Source of the DNA: [Clostridium] clostridioforme AGR2157
Lineage (GTDB): Bacteria > Bacillota > Clostridia > Lachnospirales > Lachnospiraceae
Assembly: GCF_000424325.1 (NCBI RefSeq)
Contig: NZ_AUJR01000022.1
Location: 1 to 64,000, forward strand
Reading direction: 5' to 3'
DNA length: 64,000 bases
The notes under the pieces are model-generated. The model ran no database searches. It was not told the DNA's origin and saw only the letters and a list, made by a program, of their open reading frames with translations. Numbering within the stretch: position 1 is the stretch's first letter; every line of letters starts with the position of its first letter. The position numbers and the translations under genes are program-made. This document shows positions 5,812-50,918 of this stretch, one piece after another.

Positions 5812-7257
5812 TCATTCATTGAGCAGATTATATTCCTCGATTGCCTTATTAATCTGCTGCGCCATCTTAGACGCAGCCTCCTCCGGGCTGACTCCACTAT
5901 TAAGCATGTTCTCTATCTCCGTTTCAACCACCTGCCTGGCCTCAGGAAATACGCTGAGCAGAGCGCCTGCTGACTGGGGAGTGGAATCATGAAGCTGGTC
6001 AATGGCAGTACCGAACTGGGGATATTTTTCCAGATTCTCCTTAAATACAGGTTCCTCGTGAGCCTTTACAGTCACAGGGAAATATCCTGTCTGAGCGTTC
6101 CAGTAAGCCTGGCTCTCCGGTGAAACAAGGAACTTAACGAACTCCCATGTGGCGGCCTTCTTAGCCTCATCCTCATTGTTCAGAGCCCAGAGAGAGGCGC
6201 CTCCAATGGACACTCCGCCTTTATCGCTGTCACTGACCATGGGGAAATAAGCGGTTCCCACCTCAAACTTGCCATTTACATCTTCCATAATCTGCTTTAA
6301 GGAAGCAGTGGAGCCAAGGGTCATGGCTGACTTGCCGGAGCTGAAATCTGCCAGTCCCGCGTCGCCGCCTCTGCCTACATTGGGCGCATAGCCCTTGTCG
6401 TACAGTTCCTTCCAGGCCGCCAGTGTCTTTGCTCCCGCTCCGTTCTGGTCAAATTCAACTGCTGTGGCAGCTGCCTTTCGTCCATTTCCGTTGTTTACAT
6501 AATTCTGTCCCTGCTTGCAGGTAAACTGCTCAAAAAACCAACCGTAAATGCTCAGGGATATAGGTTCTCCGGCTCCGCCCTTGTTCACCAAATCACCGGC
6601 AATCCGGCCGATCTCCCCAAGGCTCTGAGGCGCCTGTGTGATGCCCGCCTTGTCAAACATATCCTTGTTGTAGTACAGCAAAGGTGTGGATGAGTTAAAG
6701 GGCATGGAATATAAGGTATCACCTACAGTATAATACGCAGCGATGTTAGGTTCAATCTGTGTTTTATCCCATCCGTCCGCGTCGATTAACTCCTGCATGG
6801 GGACCACCCACCCGGAATCAATCATGAACCTGGTTCCAATGTCGTAAATCTGCACCAAATCCGCACCCATATTGCCAATCTGAGCGCTTTTCAGTTTGTT
6901 GATGGCATCGTCATACTCTCCCTGATACTGGGCCTCCACCCGGATTCCCATGGTGTTTTCAGAATTAAACTTATTAACCAGATACTCCAATGCTTCTCCG
7001 TTCACTCCGCCCATGGAATGCCAGAAGGTGATGGACGCGCCCTCTGCGCCTGCATTTTGAAAGGCATCTGTCTGGGAACCATCTGCCTGAGATGTGCCTG
7101 CCTGAGAACCATCTGCCTGGGATGTACCCGGCTGGGATGCGCCCGACCGGGAGCCCGGGTCAGCGGCAGCGCCCGTGCCCGCCGCCGGCGCACCGCACCC
7201 TGCCAGCATGGATACTGCCAGTAAAGCTGCAGCATAACCGATTAATCTCTTTTTCAT
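5812..7257 (-). CDS. ugpB: ABC transporter substrate-binding lipoprotein (UgpB type)
   Basis: A 481-residue extracellular solute-binding protein, family 1. The signal peptide ends in the lipobox LAGC with the lipidated Cys21. A low-complexity linker (about residues 26-68, repeats of GTSQADGSQ) separates the membrane anchor from the binding domain, which starts at ITFWHSMGGVNGEALEYLV, a typical UgpB opening (FWHSM). Later blocks such as MPFNSSTPLLYYNKDMFDKAG and the C-terminal PEEAASKMAQQINKAIEEY fit the sn-glycerol-3-phosphate / glycerophosphodiester binders. Followed by the diesterase gene 28 bases downstream. Sugar specificity cannot be excluded, but FWHSM plus ugpQ favours glycerol phosphate esters. 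Confidence 0.88.
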   Translation of the reverse strand: MKKRLIGYAAALLAVSMLAGCGAPAAGTGAAADPGSRSGASQPGTSQADGSQAGTSQADGSQTDAFQNAGAEGASITFWHSMGGVNGEALEYLVNKFNSENTMGIRVEAQYQGEYDDAINKLKSAQIGNMGADLVQIYDIGTRFMIDSGWVVPMQELIDADGWDKTQIEPNIAAYYTVGDTLYSMPFNSSTPLLYYNKDMFDKAGITQAPQSLGEIGRIAGDLVNKGGAGEPISLSIYGWFFEQFTCKQGQNYVNNGNGRKAAATAVEFDQNGAGAKTLAAWKELYDKGYAPNVGRGGDAGLADFSSGKSAMTLGSTASLKQIMEDVNGKFEVGTAYFPMVSDSDKGGVSIGGASLWALNNEDEAKKAATWEFVKFLVSPESQAYWNAQTGYFPVTVKAHEEPVFKENLEKYPQFGTAIDQLHDSTPQSAGALLSVFPEARQVVETEIENMLNSGVSPEEAASKMAQQINKAIEEYNLLNE

Positions 7258-45201: not shown

Positions 45202-45708
45202 TTATTCTGTTTTAGCGGTATTATCCTTTAAGTACTTCCTGCAATCGTATATTTTCCATAAGGCAAATATAACCAGCAGTACGCTTCCTATCAGAAAACC
45301 CATGTTAATTACCCATAAAGGATATTTAACTACAGCTGTTTTTTCATTTGTAGAAAGCTGCATCAAAATGATATTAAGACCCCAGTTAGTCGTCAGGACT
45401 TCAAACACCAGCCCAAGGGCATATTGAAGGATTTTTAAACCTCCATAGGCCTTTCTGTTATCAGATATTTTCTCCTGAATAAGATCCAGACCGATTAACT
45501 CATCGCCTATAAAAGCCAGACTGGAACAAACAAATATAGACCATACAAACAGCATTTTCAGCGTTTCATCCGTCCATGGCGCCGGCGCCTTCAGAACATT
45601 GCGGGCAAAGACAGCATACGTCTCAATTAAAATCATTATAATCCCCGCATAACCAAATATGCTCTTTACCCCTGAATCAAGCTTTGAAACAAAACCCTTC
45701 ATGTCCAT
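45202..45708 (-). CDS. dctQ: TRAP transporter small permease (DctQ)
   Basis: A 168-residue protein with four hydrophobic segments; ETYAVFARNVLKAPAPWTDETLKMLFVWSIFVCSSLAF contains the DctQ hallmark (R-x-V-x...P-W-x-E-E/T). It is the last gene of the TRAP operon, separated from dctP by the broken cyclase gene, an unusual order since dctQ normally lies between dctP and dctM. It starts 7 bases after the cyclase stop with AGGAGG inside that gene's end. Confidence 0.9.
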   Translation of the reverse strand: MDMKGFVSKLDSGVKSIFGYAGIIMILIETYAVFARNVLKAPAPWTDETLKMLFVWSIFVCSSLAFIGDELIGLDLIQEKISDNRKAYGGLKILQYALGLVFEVLTTNWGLNIILMQLSTNEKTAVVKYPLWVINMGFLIGSVLLVIFALWKIYDCRKYLKDNTAKTE

Positions 45709-46312: not shown

Positions 46313-47341
46313 TTAATTCTTCTGGATGATATCAAGAAGCTCTGTACCATTTTCATCTGTGAATACCTTCCAGGCGCTCACTGCAATCTCTTTAAATGCT
46401 TCTTTATCAGGATTTTCCACAATCTCACATCCCTTGTCCAGCAGCACCTGTTTTGCCTCTATTGTCTTTTCCTCGTTGGCTTTCCTCTGGGCCTCTTTAC
46501 CTACATTGGCTGCGTCCATGACAACCTGCTTCTGTTGGTCACTTAATTTATCCCATGTTTTTTGGCTGATTCCCATCATGAACGGGGTATAAACATGGTC
46601 TGTCAGTGTTATATACTGCTGGACCTCGTAAAACTTTCTTGATACAATTTCATGAAGCGGATTCTCTTCCGCACTGACAGTGCCCTGCTGCAATGCCGTA
46701 TATAACTCAGATGCGTCTATGGTTGTGGGCAGAGCTCCCAAAGCCTTCCATGTCTCTACCTGTACGGTTGCAGGCAGTGTCCTCATCTTAATACCATTTA
46801 AATCCGCCGGTGTCGTGACCGGCCTCACATTATTGCTGAGTTCACGGAAACCGTTCTCCCAGAAAGCCAATCCCACGATTCCCTTTTCGGCAAACTTCTC
46901 AAATATTTTTTCCGAAGCAGCTCCATCTACAGCTGCTCTGGCCTCTTCCAGATTATCAAACAGGAACGGAAGCTGGAATACTTCTACCTCCGGAACCAAG
47001 CCTGAAAAATAGGCGGTACCAGATACCCCAATATCAATTGTTCCCTGCTGAAGTCCCTGCACCATGGATGTGGCATCGCCCAAAGCCGTATCATAATAAT
47101 CCGTCGCTTTCAGGGGACCGCCGCCAATCTCATTGATATAGTCTACCATAGCCTTTAACCCGGTGCCGGTGGGCGTGTTCTCCGCCACAGAACCAGCAAA
47201 TACACTGAGTTCAATTGATGCTTCTGCTGTTTTTGCCTCTGTTCCTCCATTATCAGCGGAAGCTGGTTGATTTGCTTTGCCGCAGCCACCCATACTTAAT
47301 ACAGCTGATGCCAATAACATATACAGTGCAGTCTTTCTCAT
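46313..47341 (-). CDS. dctP: TRAP transporter substrate-binding lipoprotein (DctP)
   Basis: A 342-residue receptor. Signal peptide with lipobox SMGGC (Cys20). TGLKAMVDYINEIGGGPLKATDYYDTALGDATSMVQGLQQGTIDIGVSG follows the DctP pattern, and LNGIKMRTLPATVQVETWKALGALPTTIDASELYTALQQGTVSAEENPL includes the conserved Arg that pairs with the ligand carboxylate. An acidic organic compound is the likely ligand. Located between dctM and the cyclase remnant. Confidence 0.94.
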   Translation of the reverse strand: MRKTALYMLLASAVLSMGGCGKANQPASADNGGTEAKTAEASIELSVFAGSVAENTPTGTGLKAMVDYINEIGGGPLKATDYYDTALGDATSMVQGLQQGTIDIGVSGTAYFSGLVPEVEVFQLPFLFDNLEEARAAVDGAASEKIFEKFAEKGIVGLAFWENGFRELSNNVRPVTTPADLNGIKMRTLPATVQVETWKALGALPTTIDASELYTALQQGTVSAEENPLHEIVSRKFYEVQQYITLTDHVYTPFMMGISQKTWDKLSDQQKQVVMDAANVGKEAQRKANEEKTIEAKQVLLDKGCEIVENPDKEAFKEIAVSAWKVFTDENGTELLDIIQKN

Positions 47342-47361: not shown

Positions 47362-48639
47362 TTATTTCATTAACGCCGGCAGTAATGTTGAGATGCCAGG
47401 TATTAATACAATCGCTATGGTCCCTGCTATAATTGAAGCAATAAGTACCGGTAAATGCGGTATGATTTTATGAATGGGCTGTCCGCCTACTGAAGATGCC
47501 ACAAACAGGTTTATTCCCACCGGAGGCGTCGCCAGGCCAATACATAAGGTAACCACCATAACCACCCCGAAGTGAATCAAAGAAATTCCATACTGGGTTG
47601 CTGTAGGAATCAATATGGGAGCAAAAATCAGAAGTGCCGGTACTGCATCTATGAAACACCCCGCAACAATCAGAATGAATACAACAGCAAACATAAACAC
47701 TGTTGGGCTTGATATTACAGAAGTAAATCCTTCTGCCACCATCTGGGGTATTCCTGCCCTTGTCAGGACCCATCCAAATGCCTGGGTGGCTGCTACTATC
47801 AGCATGATACCCGCTGCTGTCTTGACTGATTTGAATACCACCCTGCCCAGGGATTTAAAATTAAGTTCCCTGTAAACGAACAATCCTATGATAAGGCAAT
47901 AGAAACAAGTAACGGCAGAAGCCTCTGTTGGCGTAAACAGGCCGGAATAAATGCCGCCTAAAATAATGGCAGGCGCAAGTATCGCCCATATAGCGTCTAA
48001 AAATGATTTTGCCGCCCGTTTCAGGTTAAAATGACCTACCCCCTTGTATCCTTTTTTAATACATTGCCATACTACTACCGCTATGACAATTACCCCAAGA
48101 AAAAGTCCCGGTACGAGTCCTGCCAGCAGCATATCCCCCACAGATTCCCCGGATGCAACTCCATATAGAACCATAAGTATACTTGGCGGAATAAGAGGTC
48201 CAAATATTCCTCCCACAGCTTGGACTGCACTGGCGTAGCCGCCGTCATACCCTTCCTCCTGCATGGATGGAATCATGATTCCCCCAACTGCCGCGGTAGT
48301 CGCTGCTCCGGCGCCTGTCATGGCTGCAAAAATCATACTCGCCACTACCGTAACAATAGCAAGACCTCCCGGCAAATGACCTACCACTGTTCTGGCAAAG
48401 TTCACAATCCGTTTTGAAATACCGCCGGATTCCATGAGTCCGCCTGCGATTACAAAAAACGGTATGGCCATTAGTGTAAATGAGTCCACCCCTTTCAGCA
48501 TCTGCTGTCCTATGATTATCATAGGTACATCCATAAAAAGTGCCATATAAAGCACTGCAGACAGACACAACGAATATGCAATCGGAACTCCCAGAAAAAG
48601 TAATACAAAAAATACTCCCATTAAAACTGCAATATTCAA
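47362..48639 (-). CDS. dctM: TRAP transporter large permease (DctM)
   Basis: A 425-residue permease with about 12 hydrophobic segments, opening NIAVLMGVFFVLLFLGVPIAYSLCLS and containing MAIPFFVIAGGLMESGGISKRI and GGIFGPLIPPSILMVLYG, DctM signatures. I start it at TTG 48639 because AGGAGG lies 8 bases upstream. The frame stays open to 48756, but the sigma-54 promoter at 48686-48703 lies inside that extension, so translation cannot begin there; ATG 48660 is the only other option. First gene of the operon. Confidence 0.92.
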   Translation of the reverse strand: MNIAVLMGVFFVLLFLGVPIAYSLCLSAVLYMALFMDVPMIIIGQQMLKGVDSFTLMAIPFFVIAGGLMESGGISKRIVNFARTVVGHLPGGLAIVTVVASMIFAAMTGAGAATTAAVGGIMIPSMQEEGYDGGYASAVQAVGGIFGPLIPPSILMVLYGVASGESVGDMLLAGLVPGLFLGVIVIAVVVWQCIKKGYKGVGHFNLKRAAKSFLDAIWAILAPAIILGGIYSGLFTPTEASAVTCFYCLIIGLFVYRELNFKSLGRVVFKSVKTAAGIMLIVAATQAFGWVLTRAGIPQMVAEGFTSVISSPTVFMFAVVFILIVAGCFIDAVPALLIFAPILIPTATQYGISLIHFGVVMVVTLCIGLATPPVGINLFVASSVGGQPIHKIIPHLPVLIASIIAGTIAIVLIPGISTLLPALMK

Positions 48640-48685: not shown

Positions 48686-48703
48686 AAGCAATAATCGTGC
48701 CAA
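48686..48703 (-). promoter_or_regulatory. sigma-54 (RpoN) promoter of the dctM operon
   Basis: Minus strand TTGGCACGATTATTGCTT, a full match to the -24/-12 consensus YTGGCACGRNNNTTGCWN. It lies about 45 bases upstream of the chosen dctM start, and the neighbouring gene encodes a sigma-54 activator. Confidence 0.92.
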
Positions 48704-48868: not shown

Positions 48869-48907
48869 GAAAAAAGATGCTCATATCAATCAAAATGAGC
48901 ATCTTTT
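48869..48907 (-). terminator. rho-independent terminator after the sigma-54 activator gene
   Basis: AAAAGATGCTCAT / ATGAGCATCTTTT stem with a 10-base loop, followed by TTTTTTCATG on the minus strand. It separates the activator gene from the dctM control region. Confidence 0.85.
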
Positions 48908-48977: not shown

Positions 48978-50918
48978 TTACTGCAACCCATATTTTTTCA
49001 TTTTTCTCCATAAAGTAGAACGGTCAATTCCCATGGCTCCTGCTGTCTCGCTCCTATTATATCCGTGTTCACTTAACAGGCGCTGAATGTATTGTTTCTC
49101 CTGCTCCCTTTTGCCTTCTGCATACATCATATAGGAGTGACCGGTTGTCACCGGCCGCTCTGAATACTCAGTTATTTCTATATCATCCTGCCCCAGTGCT
49201 GCCGCCATTTCTTCTTCTGTTATCATAAATCCGCTATGAACCACGCTCAACCGCTCAGCTATATTCCTAAGTTCCCTGATATTGCCTGTGAAGGCATATC
49301 GTTTAATGAGCTCCTCCGCTCCTTGGGACAGAATCGGCATTTCATAACCGAACTGATTACTGTAATATTGAAGATAGTAATGGAAGAGAAGCGGGATATC
49401 CTCACTCCGTTTCCGCAGCGGAGGGATGTATAATCTAAGAACATTCAAACGATAAAGAAGATCCTGCCGGAATTTCCCCTCGCTCACCTGTCTCTGCAGA
49501 TTTTTATTGGTAGCCGCAATAATCCGTACATCCACGGATATAACTGAATTACCGCCCACACGGCGCACTTCCCGTTCCTGCAGCACACGAAGCAGTTTAC
49601 TCTGAAATGTCAAAGGAATTTCTGCTATTTCATCCAAAAACAGTGTGCCTTTATGGGCCATCTCAAACAATCCCATCTTTCCGCCCTTTTTTGAACCTGT
49701 AAAAGCCCCCTCTACATAACCGAATAATTCACTTTCCAACAGGCTTTCCGGCAATGCCGCGCAATTAACTGCCACAAAAGCATTTCCCGCTCTCCTGCTG
49801 GCATTATGTATGCTCTGTGCAAAAAGCTCCTTTCCGGTTCCGGTTTCCCCTACCAGCAGGACATTGGAGGATACTCCCGCATATTTTCCGGCATTTTCAA
49901 TGGTCTTATCTATAATATCACTTTTATGAATAATGTCCTGAAATGTATACCGCGCAGCCAATCCTTTATCGCTCATCTGACGGCGTATCTGATTCTCCAT
50001 CTGTTGTATTCTTGAGGCATTCATAAAACTGACCACCAGCCCCGGCATGGAATTTCCTATTTTTACGGGAAGGAAATCAGTGGAAAGAGAAGTGCCTTCC
50101 CTTAGGTATACTCTGTCCACTATGCTTTCACCAGACTCAAAACAGCGTTCCGCTTCCTCCTGCATAAACGGAGCAATTTGCCTCAGATAAGCCCCCCCCC
50201 CCCCTATTCCCAGTAATGTCTGCACAGTTGGGAACAGCTTTCTTGCTTCTCTGTTTGCTATCTCAATCTGTCCCTTATCATTAACATAAAAAATTCCTGC
50301 ATTCGAAATTTGGGTAATGATTCTAAAAAGCTCAGACTTTTCTTTTTCCTTCTTCACCCCTTCCGCAATATGAACCGCTTCTTCCAACACATTGAAAATG
50401 GTTTCACGGCTGACCTTTATAGTCACTACCGGAATAGGGCCGTTCTTGAGATACAGATATGCGGAATAGCCGCCAATAATACAGTCACACCCCTGGCTCA
50501 CTGCCTCGGCAACACAGTATTCCAAATCATGTCCCCGCTCAACCGGATGATATGAAGTTTCCACTCCGGTAATTTCTTCCATGTGTTCATATTGATACAT
50601 ATGAAAAAACCGCCCCACAATTCCCACCTTCCTGCAGCGATACATCTTCTTGGCCTCGTAGAGAGCCTGAACTATATCGTAACCTGTAATTGGGATATTA
50701 ATAACGGGTTTAGTGGGATACTGGCGTTTCAGCTCTTCAAGAGTAAAGTTACGCCCCACAAGAACATCATATTCCCTCTCCATTTTGTACTGACGAACCA
50801 TATCAACCGTCATCACTTTAAACTCCACAGTGACCTTGTTCTTTTCAGGATATTCCTTGTATACCTCCTGTACTACCGGTTCTAATTCCGGATATGGCAC
50901 TACGAATAGTATATTCAA
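48978..50918 (-). CDS. sigma-54-dependent activator with PrpR-type sensor
   Basis: A 646-residue enhancer-binding protein. Residues 1-190 form a PrpR_N sensor domain ([17 protein letters not shown]...[13 protein letters not shown]). A PAS-like domain spans 195-305. The AAA+ domain has Walker A GETGTGKE (357-364), GAFTGS (404-409, in place of GAFTGA), Walker B TLFLDE (425-430). The C-terminus is a Fis-type HTH ([25 protein letters not shown]). Residues 239-242 are four glycines encoded within a run of 13 G, so one-base slippage would truncate the protein before the AAA+ domain. It probably activates the adjacent sigma-54 promoter of the TRAP operon in response to its substrate. Confidence 0.95.
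50192..50204. repeat. homopolymer of 13 C (13 G in the coding strand)
   Basis: Thirteen consecutive C on the plus strand inside the activator gene. The coding strand reads ATA-G13-CT; with 13 G the frame is open. With 12 G a stop follows within three codons, with 14 G after about 18 codons. Confidence 0.93.

Follow-up and report, generated by a model that had tools for sequence, protein, structure and literature searches.

A 13-base G tract in a sigma-54 activator gene of [Clostridium] clostridioforme as a candidate switch of a TRAP transporter operon

Can a homopolymer tract inside the gene of a sigma-54 activator turn substrate uptake on and off in a gut Clostridium? The question is raised by a run of 13 identical bases in the stretch of 64,000 nucleotides from [Clostridium] clostridioforme AGR2157 that was analysed here (referred to as the window; the genome it comes from is G000). 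The run lies in a regulatory gene with a set of TRAP transporter genes behind it. We analysed its length and frame, the domains of the protein it interrupts, its counterparts in related genomes and the promoter of the presumed target genes.

The G tract and the activator gene that carries it

At positions 50192-50204 the plus strand of the window reads 13 C, which corresponds to 13 G on the coding (minus) strand of the open reading frame at 48978-50918. This frame has a TTG start and encodes a sigma-54 activator of 646 aa. Domain searches identified PrpR_N at residues 37-190, the AAA+ domain Sigma54_activat at residues 329-496 (PF00158, E 1e-68), AAA_lid_14 at residues 502-578 and a Fis-type HTH_8 at residues 604-643 (PF02954, E 3.9e-12). 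The protein therefore has the make-up of a bEBP, with an AAA+ sigma-54 interaction domain and a Fis-type HTH, in a genome that holds rpoN and a -24/-12 site at the presumed target. Scores against NCBIfam models were below cut-off for both the PrpR equivalog (TIGR02329, 367 bits vs a cut-off of 499) and the PrdR equivalog (NF041552, 372 bits vs 795), and the activator was assigned to neither.

The tract covers about codons 239-243, where it encodes the Gly run of the activator, and it is in frame as assembled. Lengths that keep the frame at this locus go in steps of three (10, 13 and 16). Re-reading the sequence bore out the first-pass annotation on the existence of the G13 tract, on its location in a sigma-54 activator and on the effect of single-base changes, for which a stop within three codons had been claimed after loss of one G and a stop after about 18 codons following gain of one. 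With one G less the frame reads CTT ATC TGA, so that the stop is the third codon after the tract, and with one G more there are 17 further codons and then a stop. Both changes give a product of ~240-260 aa, without the AAA+ and DNA-binding domains. We also looked by eye for an AAA+-only protein made by a restart beyond the tract; the ATG at residue 248 had no well-spaced ribosome site.

The annotation had placed the tract between the sensor and AAA+ domains. It does lie between the two, but it is found inside a PAS-like domain (residues about 196-293) and not in a plain linker. In profile comparisons, CitA and DcuS matched the family profile with their cytoplasmic PAS domains, over about profile positions 195-293, and the G13 tract therefore appears to interrupt a PAS-like domain; the window segment alone reached no Pfam PAS model.

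A run of this length is not expected by chance. The next longest G/C run in the 64-kb window has 6 bases (n = 3), and the number of runs of at least 13 expected per 64 kb was 0.012 with an order-1 Markov model, 0.0003 with order 2 and 4e-5 with order 4. The count of the 8-mer GGGGGGGG was ordinary (6 seen vs a mean of 6.4 expected from dinucleotide shuffles of the window) because a single long run yields only 6 such words. Genome-wide, we counted four runs of exactly 8 G, two of 9, one of 10 and four of 11, followed by six of 12, two of 13 and two of 14 (17 runs of at least 9 G in total); the lengths formed two humps rather than a single tail.

Homologues, orthologues and selection on the two halves of the gene

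Homologues with mixed glycine codons at this place had been named as the finding that would make the tract incidental, and the comparison favoured the annotation's reading. All 11 aligned homologues lack the insertion, with five empty columns opposite the GGGGA of the window protein, and in two orthologues the tract has a different length that puts it out of frame. The 11 sequences (34-44% identity) are in part paralogues from the same genus and in part distant relatives, and represent a selection of the full-length matches; L089 was excluded owing to a stop within the match range. An ordinary glycine linker or motif was rejected, since none of the 11 has a glycine stretch there. Judging from the homologue alignment and the profile match, the insertion corresponds to a variable loop of the PAS-like domain.

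Orthologues were sought with 701 bases of the activator gene in 17 genomes of the genus, one genome per species. Four of them contained one: the window genome G000, G004 (94% DNA identity), G012 (94%, one side only) and G015 (84%). The tract was readable in three species, with assembly consensus lengths, each from one genome per species, of 13 G in G000, 12 G in G004 and 11 G in G015. The G000 tract is in frame; those of G004 and G015, in which bases on the 5' side of the tract are altered, are out of frame and both belong to the plus-one class. In these two genomes both halves of the activator are open but their frames differ, and the frame changes exactly at the tract. The contig of G012, a MAG, breaks off at the orthologous tract with a run of 53 C (L079:1-53), with ~210 bp before the tract missing. 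This terminal run is probably a sequencing artefact, and G012 was for that reason rejected as a fourth tract length.

We then compared selection on either side of the tract. Beyond the tract (403 codons), dN/dS was 0.079 for G000-G004, 0.060 for G000-G015 and 0.044 for G004-G015; before the tract, the values for the same pairs were 0.162, 0.098 and 0.108. For the G004-G015 pair, in which both copies are out of frame, dS was about 1 beyond the tract. By these ratios, the downstream halves of the activator are under purifying selection, out-of-frame copies included. Had the gene been OFF for long, decay of its downstream half would be expected. As neither out-of-frame copy has decayed there, three possibilities arise: OFF is a recent and reversible condition, the tracts were miscounted, or expression tolerates the frame change.

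The presumed target operon and other long G tracts

Behind the activator, on the same minus strand, come a terminator-like hairpin, dctM, dctP, a cyclase-like gene and dctQ, in this order. The hairpin with its T run (48870-48907, read from the sequence) separates the activator from the TRAP operon, and the same hairpin can be seen in the sequences of the two relatives. dctM, the TRAP large permease gene (47362-48639), has a TTG start that was picked by eye behind AGGAGG. The genes for the solute-binding protein, dctP (46313-47341), and the small permease, dctQ (45202-45708), were identified by domain or family match. The cyclase-like gene between them (PF04199, 45716-46156) is below the cut-off in the window copy and over it in the G004 copy. 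Compared with G004, the 5' part of the window gene is short of about 110 bp, which leaves an ORF of 146 aa, and the TRAP operon may therefore be decaying in the window genome.

A -24/-12 sigma-54 promoter, TGGCACGATTATTGCT, is predicted by consensus match at 48687-48702 on the minus strand; no other site in the window matches TGGCACNNNNNTTGCW without mismatches. Matches to TGGCACNNNNNTTGCW with at most 2 mismatches were no more frequent than expected (35 seen vs 37.8), and therefore only the exact TGGCACGATTATTGCT match is meaningful. The promoter is identical in G004 (L115:8183), and a looser version, TGGCGTGTTTTTTGCT, occupies the same place in G015. The genome also encodes sigma-54 itself (rpoN, PF04552, E 1.5e-52). 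The proposed link between the activator and a sigma-54 TRAP operon is supported by a consensus promoter just upstream of the TRAP genes and by the presence of rpoN, while dependence of the operon on this activator is suggested by position and promoter.

Long G tracts are widespread in the genus. Every one of the 17 genus genomes has runs of at least 10 G, with counts of 2 to 21 per genome except in G012, where there are 189. Such runs also occur in 19 of the 44 genomes from elsewhere in the family and order; most of these have 1-3, and four have 7, 7, 11 and 89. Sequencing artefacts probably account for the counts of 189 and 89. To measure tract persistence, we took the downstream flank (150 bases) of every one of the 17 G000 tracts and searched for it in G004 and G015, an approach that misses sites sharing only the upstream flank. 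In G004, 8 of 17 flanks matched; the window's site has G12 and the other seven have no G run longer than 6 in the fetched stretch, the tract position itself being lost or unaligned at two of these seven (61 and 67). In G015, six flanks matched and the window's site alone had a long run, with three of the five other alignments being short or poorly spanning the tract position. When all 54 tract sites were compared with each other by BLAST, the window tract was the only one found in all three genomes.

The same BLAST comparison revealed a G11 tract shared with both flanks between G000_64 and G015_118, at the C-terminus of an AAA_31 gene. In this gene (L064:815-1519 in G000, L118 in G015) the tract is directly behind a Tyr-rich tail. 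We take the gene to be CpsD-like; the names CpsD and BY-kinase, for capsule-type genes, go beyond the Pfam match. G000_77 (G14) and a G004 site (G15) gave a one-sided match over 236 bases of upstream flank (69%).

Several genes are split at long tracts. An acyltransferase of G000 is interrupted by a G14 tract, with Pfam positions 4-205 before it and 212-323 after it in another frame, and three genes of G004 are divided in the same way, one each for an acyltransferase (at G26), a GH3 hydrolase (G12) and a C-5 DNA methylase (G10). Long tracts also occur in frame, as in a polysaccharide pyruvyl transferase of G000 (G12), and for some pieces downstream of tracts no Pfam match was obtained. Many tracts of the genus are intergenic. 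As most are not common to species and many lie between genes, long G tracts appear to come and go without evident selection.

Other features of individual tracts were recorded. The G14 tract of the G000 acyltransferase (L112:3069-3082; L074) is on contig C51, which holds two further long G tracts, one of them preceding a bacterial sugar transferase gene. On contig C44 of G000, two G12 tracts (L109:6014-6025 and 6198-6209) are 172 bases apart, and in a BLAST of the site flanks an 844-base stretch around one was 95% identical to that around the other; this region matches G004 only once, and no long tract is present there. On contig C48 (L072), 18 A followed by 9 G stand at the beginning of a reading frame that encodes a GH32 domain, and both runs are absent in G004 and G015. 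On contig C1 of G004, all nine long tracts at 0.85-2.74 Mb carry G on the minus strand and all nine at 3.91-5.38 Mb carry it on the plus strand. The dnaA gene is at 3.68 Mb; assuming a terminus at the halfway point, 15 of these 18 tracts would have G on the leading strand, and the other three are near that terminus.

The proposed switch, its rivals and its precedents

We consider it likely that slippage in the tract turns the activator, and thereby TRAP uptake, on and off, with 13 G as the ON state and 12 or 14 G as OFF states. This would be a reversible switch of a type familiar mainly from pathogens. Replication slippage would alter the length of the G tract at a high rate. Cells with 13 G would make the full activator, which together with sigma-54 would turn on dctM-dctP-cyclase-dctQ from the consensus -24/-12 promoter, as position and promoter suggest, and cells with 12 or 14 G would be left without TRAP activation. 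Because the former would activate the operon and the latter would not, the population would always be a mixture of uptake-ON and uptake-OFF cells. That the tract is a contingency tract, as first annotated, is supported by the lack of an insertion in all 11 homologues and by the two out-of-frame orthologue tracts. The locus combines a length beyond chance (the 8-mer count being ordinary, though), truncation of the product by a single-unit change, variation in length and frame between species (as assembly values) and selection beyond the tract. Homopolymer assembly error is the main doubt about the switch.

The alternative that survives best, unlikely as we judge it, is a neutral tract. Mutational bias would have produced a slippage-prone run, and the out-of-frame orthologues would be fresh loss-of-function alleles on their way to pseudogenes, with no selected switch. 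The turnover of tracts between species and the intergenic position of many of them are consistent with this explanation, as are the damaged cyclase gene of the window's TRAP operon and the G004 tracts, whose leading-strand G (15 of 18) hints at a mutational cause. However, the activator tract, unlike the others, is long in all three readable species, and purifying selection beyond it is strong even between the two out-of-frame copies. Moreover, a slippage-prone tract in a gene that is in use would switch, whether selected for or not.

Assembly error is, in our judgement, somewhat less probable again. The tract would then be truly in frame and stable in all species, and the out-of-frame lengths would be homopolymer miscounts. 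Two of the three lengths would disrupt a gene that selection nevertheless keeps, the G012 assembly fails at this very tract (with its 53 C and ~210 bp missing), and one G004 tract reads 26 G, all of which point in this direction. Against it, 11-13 G, even if miscounted, is far above known slippage lengths, such as the G8-G11 tracts of C. jejuni, which mutate in both directions according to a review (PMC8355987). Errors in two independent assemblies would be required, and the same assemblies contain in-frame long tracts in other genes. It is very improbable that RNA polymerase slippage or ribosomal frameshifting at the G run gives a constant full-length share, tract length setting the dose and not an on/off state, for although this would account for downstream conservation in the two out-of-frame genomes, it would lead one to expect neither different tract lengths nor further genes broken at G tracts, and the best-known cases of polymerase slippage are on A/T runs.

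A switch by tract length in a regulatory gene, the reading we prefer, is not without precedent, and to call it a new kind of switch, as the first-pass annotation did, was an overstatement in view of FlgR (PMC3930126) and BvgS (PMC1891110). The sigma-54 activator FlgR of C. jejuni undergoes phase variation by homopolymer tracts in its coding sequence; as in the switch proposed here, bases are gained or lost, and the whole sigma-54 regulon is turned off (PMC3930126). FlgR is a two-component regulator of flagella with two A/T tracts of <7 bases, whose changes have been judged not truly reversible (PMC8355987), whereas the window activator has one G13 tract, a PrpR_N sensor and a transporter operon and belongs to a Gram-positive commensal. 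In B. pertussis, the C tract of bvgS (C6 ON, C7 OFF) is likewise a homopolymer inside a regulatory gene, but BvgS, unlike the window activator, is the histidine kinase of virulence genes and its tract of 6 is short (PMC1891110). The poly-G loci of Campylobacter surface genes share intragenic G tracts with lengths near 9-12, and capsule and transferase genes as targets (PMC8355987). They differ from the present case, which concerns a genus of Clostridia and a tract in an uptake regulator instead of a surface-structure gene. Reversible ON/OFF heterogeneity has been described in gut Clostridia for the flagellar switch of C. difficile, which relies on site-specific inversion by a recombinase and not on tract slippage (PMC8890394).

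Given the FlgR and BvgS precedents, novelty is confined to the combination of a G tract, a PrpR_N-type activator, a transporter operon and Clostridia. In the open-licence PMC literature, to the extent that its texts were accessible, we found no description of a poly-G switch in a sigma-54 activator of Clostridia, and the accessible part of PMC2831843 yielded nothing on long G tracts in Clostridia.

A wider reading, which we put forward only tentatively, is that the genus has a Campylobacter-like poly-G phasome in which one old tract, retained across species while others turn over, imposes a heritable coin toss on TRAP uptake through the sigma-54 activator, so that metabolism and not surface antigens would be the subject of bet-hedging. 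If the switch is real, isogenic gut Clostridia would differ cell by cell in substrate uptake, and strain-level function would not be readable from gene content alone. What looks like a frameshifted pseudogene in an assembly of one of these species would then often be a gene in a reversible OFF state, and slippage contingency would reach beyond surface genes and flagella to a transporter regulator in Gram-positive commensals.
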